This document shows positions 32,719 to 41,015 of a DNA stretch of 64,000 nucleotides, piece after piece. The position numbers and the translations under genes were made by a program. Source of the DNA: Natronobacterium haloterrestre. Its GTDB lineage: Archaea > Halobacteriota > Halobacteria > Halobacteriales > Natrialbaceae. The notes beneath the pieces are model-generated. The model was given only the letters and a program-made list of their open reading frames with translations. It did no database searches and was not told where the DNA came from. Every line of letters starts with the position of its first letter. The stretch's first letter is position 1. The stretch spans positions 372,001 through 436,000 of the forward strand of contig NZ_FOKW01000003.1 in the NCBI RefSeq assembly GCF_900112205.1. Direction: 5' to 3'.

Positions 32719-33621
32719 TCAGCCGGACAGGTGGTCGACCAGCAGGTCGGTGAACCGCCCGGCCGCCTCGTGTTGGATCCAGTGGCTCGTTTCGGGGAAC
32801 AACTCGAGGCGGCCGTCCCGACAGAACTCGTAGCTGTCGACCGCGAGCGACGGGACGAGCGCCCGGTCGGCTTCTCCCCAGGCAACGAGTGTCGGGACGT
32901 CGACGTGTCCGCGCGACATCGCCGCCGGATACCGGCCGCTGGCACGGTACCAGTTCAGCATTCCGGTGAGCGCGCCGTCGTGACGCCACGCCCGGCGATA
33001 GCGCTCGAGGTCGACGTCCGAGAACGTTCCCGGCGCGGCGCTCTCCCGCAGGCCCCGCTCGAGGACCCGGAACTCGTCGTATCGACAGAGCCGTTCGGGT
33101 AGCCACGGCAGTTGGAAGACGTAAGCGTACCCGCTCCGCCACATCTGTTCCGGGTTCGACAGCCACTGTCGCAGGTACGCAGTCGGATGGGGCGCGTTGG
33201 CGACGACGAGTCGGTCGACGACGTCGGGACGGCGGAGGCCGAGCTCCCAGGCGACCATCCCTCCCCAGTCGTGTCCGACGACGTGGGCGACGTCTTCCCC
33301 CTCGCTTTCGATCAGTTCGACGATGTCCTGCGAGAGTGTCGACCGGCGATACGCGCGTACGTGTAATGGTTTATCGCTGCGGTTGTAACCCCGCTGGTCC
33401 GGCACCAGAACGCGGTAGCCGGCCCGGACGAGCGGTTCGATCTGATCCCGCCACCCGTACCAGAACTCCGGGAACCCGTGTAACAGCACCACCAGTGGGT
33501 CGTCCGGGTCGCCGGCGACCACCGCGTGCAGCCGAACGCCGTTGACCGTTCGAACGACTGATTCGGCCTCGCTCGAGGGTAGCGGTGCCGATATCGACGG
33601 TTCTGGAGGCCGCGTTACCAT
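32719..33621 (-). CDS. Alpha/beta hydrolase, epoxide hydrolase-like
   Basis: A 300-residue soluble hydrolase. The oxyanion-hole motif LLHGFPEFWYGWR (about 47-60) and the nucleophile motif VGHDWGG, with Asp in the nucleophile position, mark the epoxide hydrolase/haloalkane dehalogenase branch. The catalytic His is in ETSHWIQHE near the end, and a helical cap domain lies between. ATG at 33621. It is the only gene in this stretch on the minus strand and interrupts the nitrite island, with the nirK operator between it and nirK copy 1. A role in nitrite respiration is not suggested. Confidence 0.87.
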   Translation of the reverse strand: MVTRPPEPSISAPLPSSEAESVVRTVNGVRLHAVVAGDPDDPLVVLLHGFPEFWYGWRDQIEPLVRAGYRVLVPDQRGYNRSDKPLHVRAYRRSTLSQDIVELIESEGEDVAHVVGHDWGGMVAWELGLRRPDVVDRLVVANAPHPTAYLRQWLSNPEQMWRSGYAYVFQLPWLPERLCRYDEFRVLERGLRESAAPGTFSDVDLERYRRAWRHDGALTGMLNWYRASGRYPAAMSRGHVDVPTLVAWGEADRALVPSLAVDSYEFCRDGRLELFPETSHWIQHEAAGRFTDLLVDHLSG

Positions 33622-33682
33622 GGAATTACTACGACGGATCGGCATTTCAATCCCAGTTTCTGGGAATACCGTGCGATTTCGT

Positions 33683-33771: not shown

Positions 33772-34863
33772 ATGACCCAATTCGACGCTAACCGACGACG
33801 GTTTCTTCAGGGGATCGGGGCAGCGGGTGCACTTGCGGTCGCCGGCTGTCTCGAGAACGATGGATCGGCTACGACCGAAACGACGTCCGAAGACAGCGGA
33901 AACCAGGCGGGACTGTCGGCCGCGGAGAGCGTCGACGTCGATCGGATCGCCCGTGACCCGACGGACATCCCGGATCCGGTCGACTGGGACGAGCCCCGCG
34001 AACACGACATCACGATCGAGACCGAGCGGCTGACCGCCGAGATCGAGCCCGGCGTCACGTTCGACTACATGACCTTCGAGGGGCAGGTGCCGGGACCGAT
34101 GGTTCGGGTCCGACGGGGCGATCGGGTCAACCTCACGTTCGACGTCCCGGACGACATGAACATCGAGATGCACAACATGGACTTCCACGCGGTCTACGGC
34201 CCCGGCGGCGGCGCCGATGCGACGACGATCGCGCCGGGAGACGACCCCGCAGAGATCAGCTTCACGGCTGACTACGCGGGCGTGTTCATCTACCACTGTG
34301 CGGTCCCGAACATGGACCAGCACATCAGCTCCGGCATGTTCGGTTCGATCCTCGTCGAACCCGAAGACGGGCTGCCCGAGGTCGACCACGAGTTCTACCT
34401 CGGTCAGCACGAGATCTACACCGAAGGCGAGGCCGGCGAGGAAGGCCACCACGGGTTCGACTTCGACGCGATGAAGAGGGAAGATCCCACCTACGTGGTG
34501 TTCAACGGCCAGGCCTACGCCTTCACGGAGAACGGCGTCGGACCGATGGAAGCCGAAGTCGGCGACACCGCACGGGTGTATCTCGCCAACGGCGGTCCGA
34601 ACCTCCTGAGCTCCTGGCACCCGATCGGGAACGTCTGGAGTAACTTCTACCGCGACGGCGACCTGCTCTCCGAACCCGACAACAACATCGAGACGGCGCC
34701 GGTCGCACCCGGTACGACCGCGGCCGGCGAGATGGAGTTCCCCGTCCCTGGCCCGGTCAAGATCGTCGACCACGCGCTCAGCCGCGTCGTCCACAAGGGC
34801 GCACTCGGCGTCATCGACGTCCAGGGCGAGGAGAACCCCGAGATCTACGACGAAGATCCGTAA
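33772..34863 (+). CDS. nirK: Copper nitrite reductase, copy 1
   Basis: Two-domain cupredoxin that reduces nitrite to nitric oxide on the outer face of the cell. The protein has 363 residues. N-terminal Tat signal with RRRFLQGIGAAGALAVAGC, lipobox Cys near residue 26. Type 1 copper ligands His134, Cys176, His184 and Met189; type 2 ligands His139, His175 and His334 (VDHALSR); catalytic Asp137 (HNMDFHA) and His283 (SWHPIG). All sites intact. ATG at 33772 follows GAGGAG. Halocyanin follows after 45 bases, probably as electron donor. A second full copy with its own halocyanin lies 4.1 kb downstream. Confidence 0.95.
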   Translation: MTQFDANRRRFLQGIGAAGALAVAGCLENDGSATTETTSEDSGNQAGLSAAESVDVDRIARDPTDIPDPVDWDEPREHDITIETERLTAEIEPGVTFDYMTFEGQVPGPMVRVRRGDRVNLTFDVPDDMNIEMHNMDFHAVYGPGGGADATTIAPGDDPAEISFTADYAGVFIYHCAVPNMDQHISSGMFGSILVEPEDGLPEVDHEFYLGQHEIYTEGEAGEEGHHGFDFDAMKREDPTYVVFNGQAYAFTENGVGPMEAEVGDTARVYLANGGPNLLSSWHPIGNVWSNFYRDGDLLSEPDNNIETAPVAPGTTAAGEMEFPVPGPVKIVDHALSRVVHKGALGVIDVQGEENPEIYDEDP

Positions 34864-34908
34864 GCCCCAGTCCCATTCGGGACGGGCGAATTACGACTTT
34901 CCACACCC

Positions 34909-35490
34909 ATGACGCTCACGTCCCGCCGCCACGTGCTTCGATCGTCTGCGCTCGCAATAGCCGCCTTCGGGGGGTGTCTCGATACTGCAGCGGATCGCTT
35001 CGACGACGACGAGCAGGCCCCGGAAGACGCCGGGGAGTTGGGAGCGCCAGCCGAACGGGTCACGGTTACGATCAACTCCCAACCGTACCCCGAGTTCGAG
35101 CCCCAGGTCGTCCACGTCGTTCCCGGCGGGACCGTCGAGTGGCTCGTCGAAACTGGCCGTCACGACGTCACCGCCTACCACGAGGACGAGCACGGCCCCC
35201 ATCGGACGTCCGACGGCGTCGGGAGCTGGGGGAGCGACCGGCTGACCGGCGTGGGGTCGTCCTACGAACGGACGTTCGACCAGGCGGGCGTCTACGACTA
35301 CGTCGATACCCAGCAGGTCTGTACCTCCCACGAGATCGCGGGTAACATCGGCCGCGTCGTGGTCGGCTGGCCCGACACCGACGACGAACCCGCGATGGCC
35401 GAACCCCAGCCCGAACTCCCCTCCCAGGCCGCCCGGGCGATCGAGCAGTTCAACGAGGAGACCCGCCCCGTCCTCGAGGCCGGACCGTAG
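34909..35490 (+). CDS. Halocyanin-like blue copper protein, copy 1
   Basis: A 193-residue exported cupredoxin. Tat-type N-terminus SRRHVLRSSALAIAAFGGC with a lipobox Cys at 23, so membrane-anchored. Copper ligands visible are His85 (GRHDVTAYH), Cys138 and His141 (VCTSHEIAGNIG). At the axial position, five residues after His141, halocyanins usually have Met; here it is Asn146. The gene follows nirK by 45 bases and is presumably co-transcribed, as electron donor to NirK or as a copper carrier. Nearly identical in its C-terminal half to copy 2. Confidence 0.88.
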   Translation: MTLTSRRHVLRSSALAIAAFGGCLDTAADRFDDDEQAPEDAGELGAPAERVTVTINSQPYPEFEPQVVHVVPGGTVEWLVETGRHDVTAYHEDEHGPHRTSDGVGSWGSDRLTGVGSSYERTFDQAGVYDYVDTQQVCTSHEIAGNIGRVVVGWPDTDDEPAMAEPQPELPSQAARAIEQFNEETRPVLEAGP

Positions 35491-35559
35491 AGGAGGTTCG
35501 ACGACGGTGACGTCGCCGCGGTCCGGATCGGATGCTTCGTCACGGGGCCGGAACGGGAC

Positions 35560-35571
35560 CGAACATATTCG
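35560..35571. promoter_or_regulatory. Shared 12-bp repeat, copy 5 (SCO1 operon)
   Basis: CGAACATATTCG, identical to copy 1, 70-81 bases before the SCO1-family ATG. A CTTTAG element about 27-32 bases before that ATG may be the TATA box. Confidence 0.7.
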
Positions 35572-35640
35572 ATGGTTTCTAAGCGGGTGGGAATCCGAGC
35601 GGTGCTTTAGCCCGTCGAAGACCGACTTTCACTCGAGAAC

Positions 35641-36405
35641 ATGACCCCTACATCCACATCTACATCCGTCGACAGGCGAACGATCTTGCGCGCGACGGGA
35701 GCAGCGGCACTCGGTACGTCCCTCGCGGGCTGTTCACAGCTAACCAGTTCCGACAACGGGGCGGACGGCGTCGTCCTGGATCCGCCGGAGAACCACGAGC
35801 GAATCAAAGAATCGGATATTCCGCATCCGATCTATGGGGAGGAGATTCCCGAAGCCACCGTCCCGGCTCCGCTGCACGACCGGTCGGTCACGACCACGGA
35901 GTTCGAGGGCGATCGACACGTCATGCTGACGTTCATCTACACCAGCTGTACGACCGTCTGTCCCGGTTTGACCGCAGCCCTGCGGCGCGTTCAGGCCGAT
36001 GCCCACGAAGAGGGATACGAGGGCGAGATCGCGTTCCTCCCGATTACCTTCGACCCCGAGTACGATACGCCCGAAGTGCTCGAGGCGTACGGCGAGGACT
36101 ACGGCGTCGACTTCGATGCAGGTAACTGGTACTTCCTGCGGCCGGAGACACACGAAGACGCCAAAGGGGTCGTGGAGGACACGTTCGGCGTGGCGTTCGA
36201 GCACGGGGAAGAGTCCGGTGACATGGACCACGACGAATCGGACGAGATGGACGACGAGGAAATGAACCACGAGCGACACATCACTCACACGTCGCTAATC
36301 TTGCTCGTGAACAAGGACGGCCTCGTCGAACGGGCCTGGACGGGCGGCTCACCCGGCGGCAACGAAATCGTCGACGCCGCCCGCGCCGTCGTCGAGGGGT
36401 GGTAA
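35641..36405 (+). CDS. SCO1/SenC-family copper chaperone
   Basis: A 254-residue Tat lipoprotein (DRRTILRATGAAALGTSLAGC, lipobox Cys near 31) with a thioredoxin fold. Copper-site residues are Cys103 and Cys107 (TSCTTVCPG) and His216 (ITHTSLILL). SCO proteins load or reduce copper centres of oxidases and, in denitrifiers, of copper reductases; here the NirK copies on either side are the obvious clients. An acidic, Met/His-rich insertion (SGDMDHDESDEMDDEEMNHE, about 195-213) could bind extra copper. It starts an operon with the TlpA-like and CcdA genes. Confidence 0.9.
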   Translation: MTPTSTSTSVDRRTILRATGAAALGTSLAGCSQLTSSDNGADGVVLDPPENHERIKESDIPHPIYGEEIPEATVPAPLHDRSVTTTEFEGDRHVMLTFIYTSCTTVCPGLTAALRRVQADAHEEGYEGEIAFLPITFDPEYDTPEVLEAYGEDYGVDFDAGNWYFLRPETHEDAKGVVEDTFGVAFEHGEESGDMDHDESDEMDDEEMNHERHITHTSLILLVNKDGLVERAWTGGSPGGNEIVDAARAVVEGW

Positions 36406-36408
36406 TCG

Positions 36409-36939
36409 ATGCGCCGTCGTGAGGTCCTCGCGGGAGCCGCCGGACTCGCCGCCCTCGGCGGCGGCGCGATCGCAGTTAGCGAACGGAACCCGCTCGAGAG
36501 CGACGCGGCCGTCGATCCGATCGAACTGGAGACGATCGACGCGCCGGGGAGCGATGCCGGAACGGTGGCGGTGCCGGAACGCGGCCGGGTGACGTTCGTC
36601 GAACTGTTCGCTACCTGGTGTGGCGTCTGTCAGGACATGATGGAACCCCTCGGTCGAGTTCACGAGGACCTCGACGGGGACGTCCAGTTCGTCTCGGTGA
36701 CCGGCGAACCGATCGGGAACACCATCACTCGCGAGGACGTCGCGGACTGGTGGCGCGAACACGACGGTAACTGGCCGGTCGCGCTCGACTCCGACCTCGA
36801 ACTGACGGAAGCGCTCGACGGCTCCGGGGTGCCGTACGCGTACGTCCTGAACGAGGACAACGTCGTGACCTGGTCCGGACGGGGGCGAAAGTCCGCCGAA
36901 GAGATCCGATCGGCCATCGACACAGCAGGGGGTGAGTGA
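36409..36939 (+). CDS. TlpA/ResA-like thioredoxin-fold protein
   Basis: A 176-residue protein with a twin-arginine N-terminus (MRRREVLAGAAGLAALGGGAIA, no lipobox Cys, so secreted or anchored by this segment) and a thioredoxin domain with active site Cys71-Gly-Val-Cys74 (FATWCGVCQDMM) and cis-Pro in GVPYAYV. It likely keeps copper-binding Cys residues of SCO1, NirK or halocyanin reduced outside the membrane, receiving electrons through CcdA. Three bases after SCO1 and overlapping ccdA by eight bases. Confidence 0.9.
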   Translation: MRRREVLAGAAGLAALGGGAIAVSERNPLESDAAVDPIELETIDAPGSDAGTVAVPERGRVTFVELFATWCGVCQDMMEPLGRVHEDLDGDVQFVSVTGEPIGNTITREDVADWWREHDGNWPVALDSDLELTEALDGSGVPYAYVLNEDNVVTWSGRGRKSAEEIRSAIDTAGGE

Positions 36940-37603
36940 CGTGGCGACCGGCGAACTCCTCGGAACGATGCTGTTCGCCCTCGGGATCGGCGTAGCGACG
37001 TTCTTCTCGCCGTGTGCGTACGCGCTGTTGCCCGGCTACGTCGGCTACTACGTCGCCGCGACTGGCGAGGAGACGACCCCGCCGCTGTCCGGCACGCTGG
37101 CCCGCGGGATCGCGGCGGCCGTCGGCGCGATGAGCGTCCTCGGCGTCCTGTCGGTCGCCGCGATCCTCGCCGGCGAGACGGTCGAGCGGGCGTTGCCCCT
37201 CCTCGAGTACGGCGTCGGCGTCGCCCTGATCGTGCTCGGCCTGTGGGTGCTGTACGGCGGGAGCGGTGCCGTCCACGTCCTCCTGCCCGAGCGCCGATCG
37301 ACCGTCCTCGGGTTCGGACTCTTCGGCGCGATGTACGCCCTCGCCGCGACGGCCTGTGTCCTCCCCGTGTTCCTGGGACTGGCGTTTCGCTCGCTGACCA
37401 TGCCGCCACTCGAGACGGCGCTCGTCCTCGGGACCTACGCTGCCGGGTTCGGGACGCTCATGATCGCGGTCACGGTCGCGACGGCCTTCGGATACACGCT
37501 CGGAGCGGGGCGTATCGCGAACTACGTCGACCGTGTGATCCGTATTGCAGGCGTCGTACTGGTGATCGCCGGCGTCGGCCAACTGTACGTGGCTGCGGTC
37601 TGA
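36932..37603 (+). CDS. ccdA: CcdA/DsbD-like thiol-reductant membrane transporter
   Basis: A 223-residue membrane protein with about six helices that moves reducing equivalents from cytoplasmic thioredoxin to the outside. The first conserved Cys is in FFSPCAYALLPGYV and the second in LAATACVLPVFLG, the two redox Cys of the family. Start is GTG at 36932, overlapping the TlpA-like gene by eight bases. With SCO1 and the TlpA-like protein it makes a complete extracytoplasmic thiol/copper assembly set. Confidence 0.9.
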   Translation: MSDVATGELLGTMLFALGIGVATFFSPCAYALLPGYVGYYVAATGEETTPPLSGTLARGIAAAVGAMSVLGVLSVAAILAGETVERALPLLEYGVGVALIVLGLWVLYGGSGAVHVLLPERRSTVLGFGLFGAMYALAATACVLPVFLGLAFRSLTMPPLETALVLGTYAAGFGTLMIAVTVATAFGYTLGAGRIANYVDRVIRIAGVVLVIAGVGQLYVAAV

Positions 37604-37786
37604 GGTCGCCTCGATCGCGTCCGTTTGCCTTCGCATCGATCTACGAAAGGGGCTGCGTTCCGACGACCTCCACGCCGAACCGTCCAGGACCCTAGTAATA
37701 CGCAGTCGCCGTCGACCGTCGTCGATCGACCGTGCGAGGCGATCGACGACCGACCGCTGGGCCCGCCGGAAGAGCCCTCCACTGGC

Positions 37787-37798
37787 CGAACATGTTCA
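37787..37798. promoter_or_regulatory. Shared 12-bp repeat, copy 6 (nirK copy 2)
   Basis: CGAACATGTTCA, one mismatch in the outer arm, 78-89 bases before the nirK copy 2 ATG, the same distance as copy 4 from nirK copy 1. Confidence 0.7.
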
Positions 37799-37875
37799 CC
37801 AGTATTCCCTCTCGTGTAGAATTAGCGAGATCGTTCTACATATGGGGGGTGTTTATCCGAATGAGGAGAAGGACA

Positions 37876-38961
37876 ATGACCACGATCCAGGCCAACCGAC
37901 GGCAGTTCATGCAGGCGATCGGGGCAACCGGCGCTGTAGCGGTAGCCGGCTGTCTCGGCAACGACGACGTGTCGGGGAGCAGCACGACAACCGAAAGCGA
38001 GGAGGGACTGCCGGCAGCGGAGGCTGTCGACGTCGATCGGGTCGCTCGAGATCCGACCGACATTCCGGCTCCCGTCGACTGGGACGAGCCCCGGGAACAC
38101 GACATCACACTCGAGACGGAACAGATGACGGCCGAGATCGAGCCGGGAGTCACCTTCGACTTCATGACCTTCGGGGGGCAGATCCCGGGACCGATGGTCC
38201 GGGTCCGTCGTGGCGATCGGGTCAACCTCCGCTTCGAGGTCCCGGAGGACATCAACATGGACCTCCACAACGTGGACTTCCACGCGGTCTACGGGCCCGG
38301 CGGTGGTGCAGATGCCACGACCATCGCGCCGGGTGACGACGCGGCCGAAATCAGCTTCACGGCCGAGTACGCCGGCGCGTTCATCTACCACTGTGCGGTC
38401 CCGAACATGGACCACCACATCAGCGCCGGCATGTTCGGCACGATCCTCGTCGAACCCGAAGAGGGACTGCCCGAGGTCGACCACGAGTTCTACCTCGGCC
38501 AACACGAGATCTACACCGAAGGCGAGGCCGGCGAGGAGGGCCACCACGGCTTCGACTTCGACGCGATGCAGTCGGAGGACCCCACCTACGTGACTTTCAA
38601 CGGCCAGGCCTATGCCTTCACCCCGGACGGCCTCGGCCCGATGAAGGCCAATACGGGTGAAACCGCCCGGGTGTACTTCGCCAACGGTGGTCCCAACCTG
38701 ACCAGTGCGCTCCACCCGATCGGCAACGTCTGGAGCCGCTACTACCGCGACGGCGACCTCATCTCGGAACCCGACCGCAACATCGAGACGGCGCCGGTCG
38801 CACCCGGTACGACCACGGTCGGCGAGATGGAGTTCCCCGTCCCTGGCCCGGTCAAGATCGTCGACCACGCGCTCAGCCGCGTCGTCCACAAGGGCGCCCT
38901 GGCCGTCATCGACGTCGAGGGCGAAGAGAACCCAGAGGTCTACGAGGAGGATCCCCAATAG
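37876..38961 (+). CDS. nirK: Copper nitrite reductase, copy 2
   Basis: A 361-residue paralogue of the enzyme at 33772 with the same Tat lipoprotein signal (NRRQFMQAIGATGAVAVAGC). Type 1 ligands His131, Cys173, His181, Met186; type 2 ligands His136 and His172 plus the VDHALSR His; catalytic Asp134 (HNVDFHA) and the His of ALHPIG. Around the catalytic His the sequence is TSALHPIG against SSWHPIG in copy 1, next to the substrate pocket. A 78-base block near the 3' end is identical to copy 1. ATG at 37876 after GAGGAG. A halocyanin gene follows after 60 bases. Confidence 0.95.
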   Translation: MTTIQANRRQFMQAIGATGAVAVAGCLGNDDVSGSSTTTESEEGLPAAEAVDVDRVARDPTDIPAPVDWDEPREHDITLETEQMTAEIEPGVTFDFMTFGGQIPGPMVRVRRGDRVNLRFEVPEDINMDLHNVDFHAVYGPGGGADATTIAPGDDAAEISFTAEYAGAFIYHCAVPNMDHHISAGMFGTILVEPEEGLPEVDHEFYLGQHEIYTEGEAGEEGHHGFDFDAMQSEDPTYVTFNGQAYAFTPDGLGPMKANTGETARVYFANGGPNLTSALHPIGNVWSRYYRDGDLISEPDRNIETAPVAPGTTTVGEMEFPVPGPVKIVDHALSRVVHKGALAVIDVEGEENPEVYEEDPQ

Positions 38962-39021
38962 AGCGGAACCTCCCGCTCGCCACGCACAGAACCGCATACG
39001 ACCGATACCCACCCCAGGACC

Positions 39022-39600
39022 ATGACACCAGTTACCCGCCGTACCGTCCTACAGGCGTCCGCATCCGCGGTCGGAATCGCCCTCGCCGGCTGTCTCGAGA
39101 GCACAGCGGATCGCTTCGGCGCTGGGGAGGGCGACGGTACCGGCGAACTGGGATCGCCGACCGATCGGATCACGGTCACGGCGAACTCTCAGCCCTACCC
39201 CGAGTTCGAGCCCCAGATCGTCCACGTCGTTCCCGGCGGGACCGTCGAGTGGCTCGTCGAAACGGGCCGGCACGACGTCACCGCCTACCACGAGGACGGG
39301 CACGGCCCGCACCGAACGCCCGACGGCATCGAGGCCTGGGGAAGCCGCCGACTGACCGGCGTGGGATCGTCATACGAACGGACGTTCGATCGGGCGGGCG
39401 TCTACGACTACGTCGATACCCAGCAGGTCTGTACCTCCCACGAGATCGCGGGTAACATCGGCCGCGTCGTGGTCGGCTGGCCCGACCCCGACGACGAACC
39501 CGCGATGGCCGAGCCCCAGCCGGAGCTTCCATCGCAGGCCGCCCGGGCGGTCGAGCTGTTCAACGAGGAGACCCGCCCCGTCCTCGAGGCCGGACCGTAG
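39022..39600 (+). CDS. Halocyanin-like blue copper protein, copy 2
   Basis: A 192-residue exported cupredoxin (Tat-type TRRTVLQASASAVGIALAGC lipoprotein signal). The copper region is identical in protein sequence to copy 1: GRHDVTAYHED, then VCTSHEIAGNIG, again with Asn at the axial Met position. The N-terminal quarter is diverged from copy 1 while a 94-base block covering the Cys-His ligand loop is identical at DNA level. Follows nirK copy 2 and closes the nitrite island. Confidence 0.88.
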   Translation: MTPVTRRTVLQASASAVGIALAGCLESTADRFGAGEGDGTGELGSPTDRITVTANSQPYPEFEPQIVHVVPGGTVEWLVETGRHDVTAYHEDGHGPHRTPDGIEAWGSRRLTGVGSSYERTFDRAGVYDYVDTQQVCTSHEIAGNIGRVVVGWPDPDDEPAMAEPQPELPSQAARAVELFNEETRPVLEAGP

Positions 39601-40025: not shown

Positions 40026-41015
40026 TCAGGCCGGCGCGCCGTCCTCGGCCTCGAGGAGTTCGTGGTACCGGTTGCGGATCGTGACCTCGGAGATGCTGGC
40101 GACCTCGCTGACGTCGTTCTGGGTGACCTTCTCGTTGGTCAGCAGGGCGGCGGCGTAGACCGCGGCGGCGGCGAGGCCGACGGGCGACTTGCCGCTGTGG
40201 ATCCCCTCGTCCTTGGCGGTCTTGAGCAGTCGCCGGGCGCGGCGTTCCGTCTCGTCGGGCAGTTCGAGGTCGCTCGCGAAGCGGGGGACGTAGCTCTCGG
40301 GATCGGCCGGCTGAACCTCGAGGCCGAGTTCGCGGACGACGTAGCGGTACGTGCGGGCGATCTCGTCCTTTTCGACGCGGGAGACGGCGCTGATCTCGTC
40401 GAGCGAACGGGGGGTGCCGGCCTGGCGGGCGGCGGCGTACAGCGACGCGGTCGCGACGCCTTCGATCGAACGGCCCGGGAGGAGGTCCTCCTCGAGGGCG
40501 CGGCGGTAGATCACCGATGCGGTCTCGCGGACGTTCTCCGGGAGGCCGAGCGCCGAGGCCATGCGGTCGATCTCGCCGAGTGCCTGCTTGAGGTTGCGCT
40601 CCTTCGAGTCACGGGTTCGGAACCGCTCGTTCCAGGTGCGCAGGCGCTGCATCTTCTGGCGCTGGCGACTGGACAGCGAGCGGCCGTAGGCGTCTTTGTC
40701 CTGCCAGCCGATGTTCGTCGACAGGCCCTGGTCGTGCATCATGTTCGTCGTCGGGGCACCGACGCGGCTCTTCTCGTCTTTCTCGGCGGCGTCGAACGCC
40801 CGCCACTCGGGGCCGCGGTCGATTTCGCCTTCGTCGACGACGAGCCCGCAGTCCGCACAGACCGTTTCGGCGTGCTCGGCGTCCGAGACGAGGCGACCGC
40901 CACATTCGGGACACTGTTCTCGCTCACGCTCGTCTTCCTCGGACGTCTCCTGCGACTCGGCGCGGTCCGCCTGGCGTCGCTGGTCGCTGCGGGTTCGGAT
41001 GGTGGAGTCGGTCAT
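40026..41015 (-). CDS. tfb: Transcription initiation factor TFB
   Basis: A 329-residue TFIIB homologue that recruits RNA polymerase to TBP-bound promoters and contacts the BRE. N-terminal extension of about 33 residues, zinc ribbon CPECGGRLVSDAEHAETVCADCG, B-finger/linker with DRGPEWRAFDAAEKDEKSRVGAP, then two cyclin-fold repeats (about 135-225 and 230-320), the second ending in the recognition helix NDVSEVASISEVTIRNRY. Haloarchaea have several TFBs; which one this is cannot be told. Its promoter lies 56-66 bases upstream. Confidence 0.96.
   Translation of the reverse strand: MTDSTIRTRSDQRRQADRAESQETSEEDEREREQCPECGGRLVSDAEHAETVCADCGLVVDEGEIDRGPEWRAFDAAEKDEKSRVGAPTTNMMHDQGLSTNIGWQDKDAYGRSLSSRQRQKMQRLRTWNERFRTRDSKERNLKQALGEIDRMASALGLPENVRETASVIYRRALEEDLLPGRSIEGVATASLYAAARQAGTPRSLDEISAVSRVEKDEIARTYRYVVRELGLEVQPADPESYVPRFASDLELPDETERRARRLLKTAKDEGIHSGKSPVGLAAAAVYAAALLTNEKVTQNDVSEVASISEVTIRNRYHELLEAEDGAPA

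Follow-up and report, generated by a model that had tools for sequence, protein, structure and literature searches.

Copper proteins of the plastocyanin/azurin family, the haloarchaeal halocyanins among them, hold copper through His-Cys-His ligands and an axial Met, and halocyanins linked to nirK have been proposed as electron donors to NirK, the copper nitrite reductase (PMC8301774, PMC7754194, PMC11218638). In the accessible text of one of these reports, the NirK electron donor of Haloferax mediterranei is described as still unknown (PMC8301774). According to the accessible parts of other reports, stellacyanin and TsNirK have a Gln at the axial position of the type 1 site (PMC4059628; PMC6400189), and in Neisseria the PCuAC protein AccA delivers copper to the nitrite reductase AniA (PMC13006917). 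Here we analyze a window of 64,000 nucleotides from Natronobacterium haloterrestre (the whole stretch from 372,001 to 436,000 of contig NZ_FOKW01000003.1), in which two cupredoxin genes accompany two copies of nirK. The encoded proteins share the PF00127 sequence, the His-Cys-His ligands and the C-x2-H-x4-axial spacing with plastocyanins, azurins and halocyanins. Unlike these, they have no axial Met and have gained five residues ahead of the ligand Cys. The branch to which they belong is a well-delimited new variant within a known family. The features of the two genes are as follows.

34909..35490, + strand: cupredoxin copy A, Met-less and insertion-bearing, an open reading frame of 193 amino acids (PF00127, 30.8 bits against a cut-off of 21.2)
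35283..35376, + strand: 94-base block identical to 39393-39486, with mismatches on either side
35302..35316, + strand: insertion VDTQQ of copy A, holding the invariant Asp133; a gap in solved plastocyanins and in 44 of 88 relatives
35317..35352, + strand: copper loop VCTSHEIAGNIG of copy A, with the codon of the axial-position Asn146 at 35344-35346
39022..39600, + strand: cupredoxin copy B, Met-less and insertion-bearing, 192 amino acids (PF00127, 26.3 bits against a cut-off of 21.2)
39412..39426, + strand: insertion VDTQQ of copy B, read from the sequence
39427..39462, + strand: copper loop VCTSHEIAGNIG of copy B, with the codon of the axial-position Asn145 at 39454-39456

The original prediction held that Asn occupies the axial Met position in both proteins, and this is borne out, with both open reading frames in the places it had given. 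The loop in each copy reads VCTSHEIAG-N-IG, and Asn146 (copy A) and Asn145 (copy B), each encoded by AAC, lie at +5 from the ligand His, which is the Met position of the matched solved plastocyanins in a phmmer alignment. A degenerate form of the loop pattern matches the window twice (35317 and 39427), with 0 matches expected from 100 shuffles. Compared with a classical type 1 copper site, the equatorial ligands His85, Cys138 and His141 are all present in the alignment, the axial Met is missing with Asn146 instead, and no conserved Met is found elsewhere. The alternative named at the outset, a Met or Gln ligand in a shifted loop, was checked by alignment, and no such residue is conserved among the 44 proteins with the insertion described below. 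A shifted axial Met is ruled out because no Met column is conserved among them, the best one being position 163 (Met in 25 and Leu in 14 of the 44), and Gln135 is ruled out because it is Gln in only 33/44.

Both copies pass the gathering cut-off of PF00127 (Copper-bind, plastocyanin/azurin; 21.2), which is the sole Pfam family matched by either; the PCuAC domain (PF04314) is matched by neither. Against the halocyanin model TIGR03102 they score 31.7 and 30.9 bits, far under the NCBI cut-off of 93.8, which qualifies the halocyanin label of the original prediction. By the curated NCBI test, both are plastocyanin/azurin-family proteins and not halocyanins; in the whole genome of the window, 0 of 6 matches to the halocyanin model exceed the curated cut-off.

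We next compared the two proteins with their relatives, taken from 80 stretches that were the better-scoring part of the listed matches, the weaker ones being left out. After identical sequences were removed, 97 proteins yielded 88 unique relatives. In the phmmer alignment, solved plastocyanins have a five-residue gap directly before the ligand Cys, which is filled by an insertion of the form V/A/T/L-D-T/R/K-Q/R/V/T-x in 44 of the 88 relatives and missing in the other 44. In the insertion group, the axial residue is Asn in 33 proteins, Ala in six, Gly in three, Ser in one and Met in one. In the group without the insertion it is Met in 36, Ala in six, Gln in one and Leu in one; when counting is confined to the 39 members with other ligands intact, it is Met in 35, Ala in two, Gln in one and Leu in one. 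The branch is found in at least 38 of 391 genomes, the window's included. Plasmids gave 33 records, every one at less than 60% identity, and viral contigs gave no relative. Three insertion-less relatives (L095:4605-5126, L099:4294-4812 and L102:629-1153) have lost the Cys ligand as well as the second His, with the rest of the protein conserved, and are candidate copper-free cupredoxins, and two Met-type relatives (L104:4176-4823 and L113:4299-4967) have a long insertion within the copper loop itself, between the Cys and the second His.

A quick tree was built from 141 columns, with the insertion and axial columns excluded and many forks left open. The 44 insertion-bearing proteins form one side of a branch with a Shimodaira-Hasegawa-like approximate likelihood ratio test (SH-aLRT) support of 94, so that the insertion counts as one change. 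Because the tree needs a single gain of the insertion, its linkage to the loss of Met is essentially one historical event, kept afterwards. For the same reason the rows are not independent, and the Fisher test of insertion against Met (p 1.8e-15) carries no weight; a test on independent pairs had one pair. The one member with both insertion and Met (L086) sits on a long end branch in a smaller subgroup. In the core sub-branch, to which the window's proteins belong and which spans several genera, Asn is fixed in 28/28 rows, and this bears out the earlier view that it is not a random mutation. As the alignment reads, however, the constant feature of the branch is the loss of Met and not Asn itself, and since sister proteins have Ala or Gly instead, the Asn is unlikely to be indispensable as a ligand.

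The 94-base identical block was correctly described, its identity ending in mismatches on either side. However, the sharing of Asn by the two copies had also been offered as a sign that it is not a random mutation, and this argument is not supported, because two copies from the same genome do not count as independent evidence. Genome G085 carries an identical order of seven genes, and in a four-way comparison of copies A and B with its two copies, the signal-peptide part of copy A is 95-100% identical to that of the G085 copy beside nirK2, that of copy B is 93-98% identical to that of the copy beside nirK1, and copies A and B are 60-70% identical to each other. The copy-specific signal peptides are thus swapped relative to the nirK copies in G085. 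Between alignment columns 240 and 420, the G085 copies do not differ from each other at all (100% identity). In the region of the 94-base block (columns 360-480), the window copies are 97-98% identical mutually, as against 90-96% to either G085 copy, and over columns 240-360 they are no closer to each other than to the G085 copies. Such a patchwork is what concerted evolution between copies produces. Consequently, the identity of the window copies is no test of selection; conservation across genera is.

How much chemistry follows from the axial change? Non-Met residues at this position are familiar mainly from mutagenesis, and in the branch Asn, Ala, Gly and Ser all occur there naturally. One comparison is with azurin, where, in the accessible text, M121N raises the potential by 28 to 48 mV and M121G by 7 mV (PMC5698706). 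These resemble the branch proteins in their axial Asn or Gly, although they are laboratory variants and ours are natural. Since the azurin shifts are small, a large potential shift from the axial change alone would not be expected here, as far as azurin can be transferred to this branch. The suggestion that Asn is a potential-tuning ligand is weakened on this account and by the Ala, Gly or Ser found in 10/44 members. The Gln-axial sites of stellacyanin and TsNirK are alike in that a natural amide replaces Met, but the branch has Asn, Ala, Gly or Ser and not Gln. We know of no insertion of the branch type in Gln-axial type 1 proteins.

The other conserved positions bear on two further explanations. 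Within the insertion group, Cys138, His141, Glu142 and His91 are each present in 44/44 and His85 in 41/44, with Asn in the other three (L081, L085 and L088). The near-invariant branch-specific columns are Pro59, Pro97, Asp133 and Arg149. Asp133, inside the insertion, is present in 44/44 and is the only invariant branch-specific residue with a ligand-capable side chain. It might therefore have taken over as the axial ligand. The copper-thiolate site would then be red or type 2-like, coordinated by a carboxylate, and would have a free position at which nitric oxide or nitrite could bind. Nitrosocyanin, a red copper protein with a carboxylate axial ligand, would be the model; the small residues Asn, Ala, Gly and Ser would leave axial room, and the insertion has a single origin that coincides with the loss of Met or lies close to it. 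We nevertheless consider this improbable. Insertion and Met occur together in L086, five residues of extended strand would put Asp133 far from the copper, and Arg149 is as invariant and branch-specific as Asp133, so that a salt bridge explains Asp133 equally well. The probable role of Asp133 is to hold the inserted segment against the strand that follows, perhaps via Arg149. AlphaFold models from two runs of 12 sequences each had a mean pLDDT (predicted local distance difference test) of 52.0 and 53.8 and were not drawn on for copper geometry; a Foldseek search with the second model gave no match at E 0.001 or better.

Neutral drift of the axial position in a decaying protein, after the site had lost importance, would explain the variation in another way. 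The related insertion-less group does include members without Cys and His (L095, L099 and L102), and the cupredoxin of genome G200 is an apparent remnant, with a transposase-like gene at the nirK place of its sister genome. Yet Cys138 and His141 are kept in 44/44 and Asn in all 28 core rows, and we give drift very little credence.

The genomic context, which the original prediction missed together with the insertion and its invariant Asp133, includes SCO, thioredoxin and membrane-protein genes. In the window, the gene order is nirK1, cupredoxin A, SCO, TlpA-like thioredoxin, membrane protein, nirK2 and cupredoxin B.

32719-33630, - strand: alpha/beta hydrolase, flanking the array beside nirK1
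33772..34863, + strand: nirK copy 1 (copper nitrite reductase; TIGR02376 366.7 bits, cut-off 296.3), with type 1 loop CAVPNMDQHISSGM and type 2 motifs
35641..36405, + strand: SCO1/SenC copper protein (PF02630, 7.6e-17), with CxxxC and a His/Met/acid-rich stretch
36409..36939, + strand: TlpA/ResA-like thioredoxin (PF08534, 6.4e-11), with CxxC
36932..37603, + strand: membrane protein with several hydrophobic segments, taken as CcdA-like only from its place in the gene order and its motifs; orthologues keep its place
37876..38961, + strand: nirK copy 2 (TIGR02376 374.3 bits, cut-off 296.3), best solved relative AniA 1kbv
40029-41015, - strand: transcription factor B gene, flanking the array

At E 0.001 the membrane protein has no match in Pfam or NCBIfam, and we presume its motifs to be CcdA-like. 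In the SCO protein (35641-36405), an acidic His/Met-rich stretch, HGEESGDMDHDESDEMDDEEMNHERH, lies ahead of the conserved His and is possibly an extra copper-binding segment. The seven-gene array nirK-cupredoxin-SCO-TlpA-CcdA-nirK-cupredoxin (33772-39600; L047; L052) recurs in G085 and Halopiger goleimassiliensis, and at L063:5222-10387 cupredoxin and SCO are both tandem-duplicated in one cluster (nirK-hcy-hcy-SCO-SCO-TlpA-CcdA).

The surroundings of 41 genes with the insertion were compared across 37 other genomes. The immediate upstream neighbor, on the same strand, is nirK in 30/41, and SCO lies downstream in 38/41, TlpA in 35/41 and the CcdA-like gene in 31/41, so that most of the branch genes sit between nirK and SCO; two of the three SCO exceptions are second tandem copies. 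Ten genomes lack an adjacent nirK. It lies about 10-11 kb away on the same contig in three (G321, G091 and G004), on another contig in two (G025 and G034) and elsewhere in three (G113, G211 and G185), the nirK locus read in G113 and G185 being of another lineage. G151 and G200 have no nirK above the cut-off. In G151, cupredoxin and SCO are intact, and nirK seems to have been lost while they stayed, because a hydrolase-like gene adjoins the cupredoxin as the window's hydrolase adjoins nirK1. At locus L055, which has no nirK, there is likewise a hydrolase-like gene at the flank. In G200 (L085:1-4400), where a transposase-like gene occupies the nirK place of the sister genome (L188), SCO, TlpA and CcdA remain, and the cupredoxin looks like a remnant from its open reading frames.

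As controls, 40 nirK loci were hand-picked for spread over other lineages among the best matches listed, and cupredoxins were counted anywhere in a stretch of about 13 kb rather than only beside nirK. SCO, TlpA or CcdA occurred at 0/40 of them. Cupredoxin loops occurred at 20/40, and 31/31 loops have Met, which rules out that the loss of Met simply goes with nirK. These halocyanins are nirK-linked copper proteins like those of the branch, but they keep the Met and are not accompanied by an SCO module. A further 54 TlpA loci outside the branch had a branch-type cupredoxin in 0/54 (34 searched by profile and pattern, 20 by pattern only), so that the cupredoxin does not simply go with the SCO module either. 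Two of them (L181 and L188) have nirK adjacent and are counter-examples to a strict nirK-cupredoxin rule.

We tentatively favor, at somewhat short of even confidence, the reading that the Met-less, insertion-bearing branch is a copper-loaded single-electron carrier to the adjacent NirK. The cupredoxin would still bind one copper through His-Cys-His, with the axial bond weak or missing, and would pass single electrons to NirK, while the neighboring SCO, thioredoxin and membrane protein would load the copper of both. This reading draws on nirK adjacency, on the equatorial ligands and on analogy: halocyanins with Met occupy a similar position near nirK of other lineages, nirK-linked halocyanins are the donors proposed in the literature, and since azurin M121N and M121G have measured potentials, a Met-less site can remain redox-active. 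It is also favored by the lack of any protein above the curated halocyanin cut-off in the window's genome, and by the three further genomes with nirK about 10-11 kb away on the same contig. Several observations weigh against it. The adjacency to SCO (38/41) is tighter than that to nirK (30/41), the protein stays intact beside SCO in G151 and persists in G113, G211 and G185, and the loss of His85 in three members is odd for an electron carrier. The AlphaFold models, at their low confidence, were unusable.

A copper-loading partner is a close and quite possible competitor, though we doubt it a little more. Here, the cupredoxin would have turned into a metallochaperone that passes copper from SCO to NirK, in the role of a bacterial PCuAC such as AccA. 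The same near-fixed SCO neighbor and the persistence without nirK speak for it. The loss of the axial Met together with tolerated variation at His85, two of whose three losses are in full nirK clusters, would fit a labile site. PCuAC was found in 0/38 branch-carrying genomes by a search that was positive in 3/14 controls. AccA is an accessory copper protein for a related NirK, AniA being the closest solved relative of NirK copy 2, although it belongs to a different family from the branch cupredoxin and PF04314 is absent here. In the accessible part of a report on Haloferax mediterranei, the operon E6P09_05575-05560, which encodes a cupredoxin, SCO, thioredoxin and cytochrome c biogenesis protein, is induced in denitrification with log2 fold changes of 7.35, 7.56, 6.51 and 3.05 (PMC11218638 section 9); the likeness is one of gene order and induction, compared without its copper loop. 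On the other side, the SCO-thioredoxin-membrane protein module occurs without such a cupredoxin in 54/54 further loci and can therefore do without one, the full set of three equatorial type 1 ligands is present in most members, and the nirK-SCO locus L188 has no cupredoxin between nirK and SCO. We think it rather unlikely that, in a more specific form, the cupredoxin became a dedicated NirK copper-loader by losing Met and gaining an Asp-containing insertion, and together with SCO replaces the PCuAC that these haloarchaea lack.

In the literature searched, mostly outside subscription journals, we found no description of Met-less nirK-linked halocyanins. Taken by itself, the change at the axial position is minor chemistry, and what makes the branch of interest is the insertion, which originated once, and the linkage to SCO. 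The branch combines a copper site that naturally lacks Met, an inserted segment adjoining the ligand Cys and an SCO neighbor that is almost always present, and it is a testable candidate for either role, the supply of electrons or of copper to haloarchaeal NirK.

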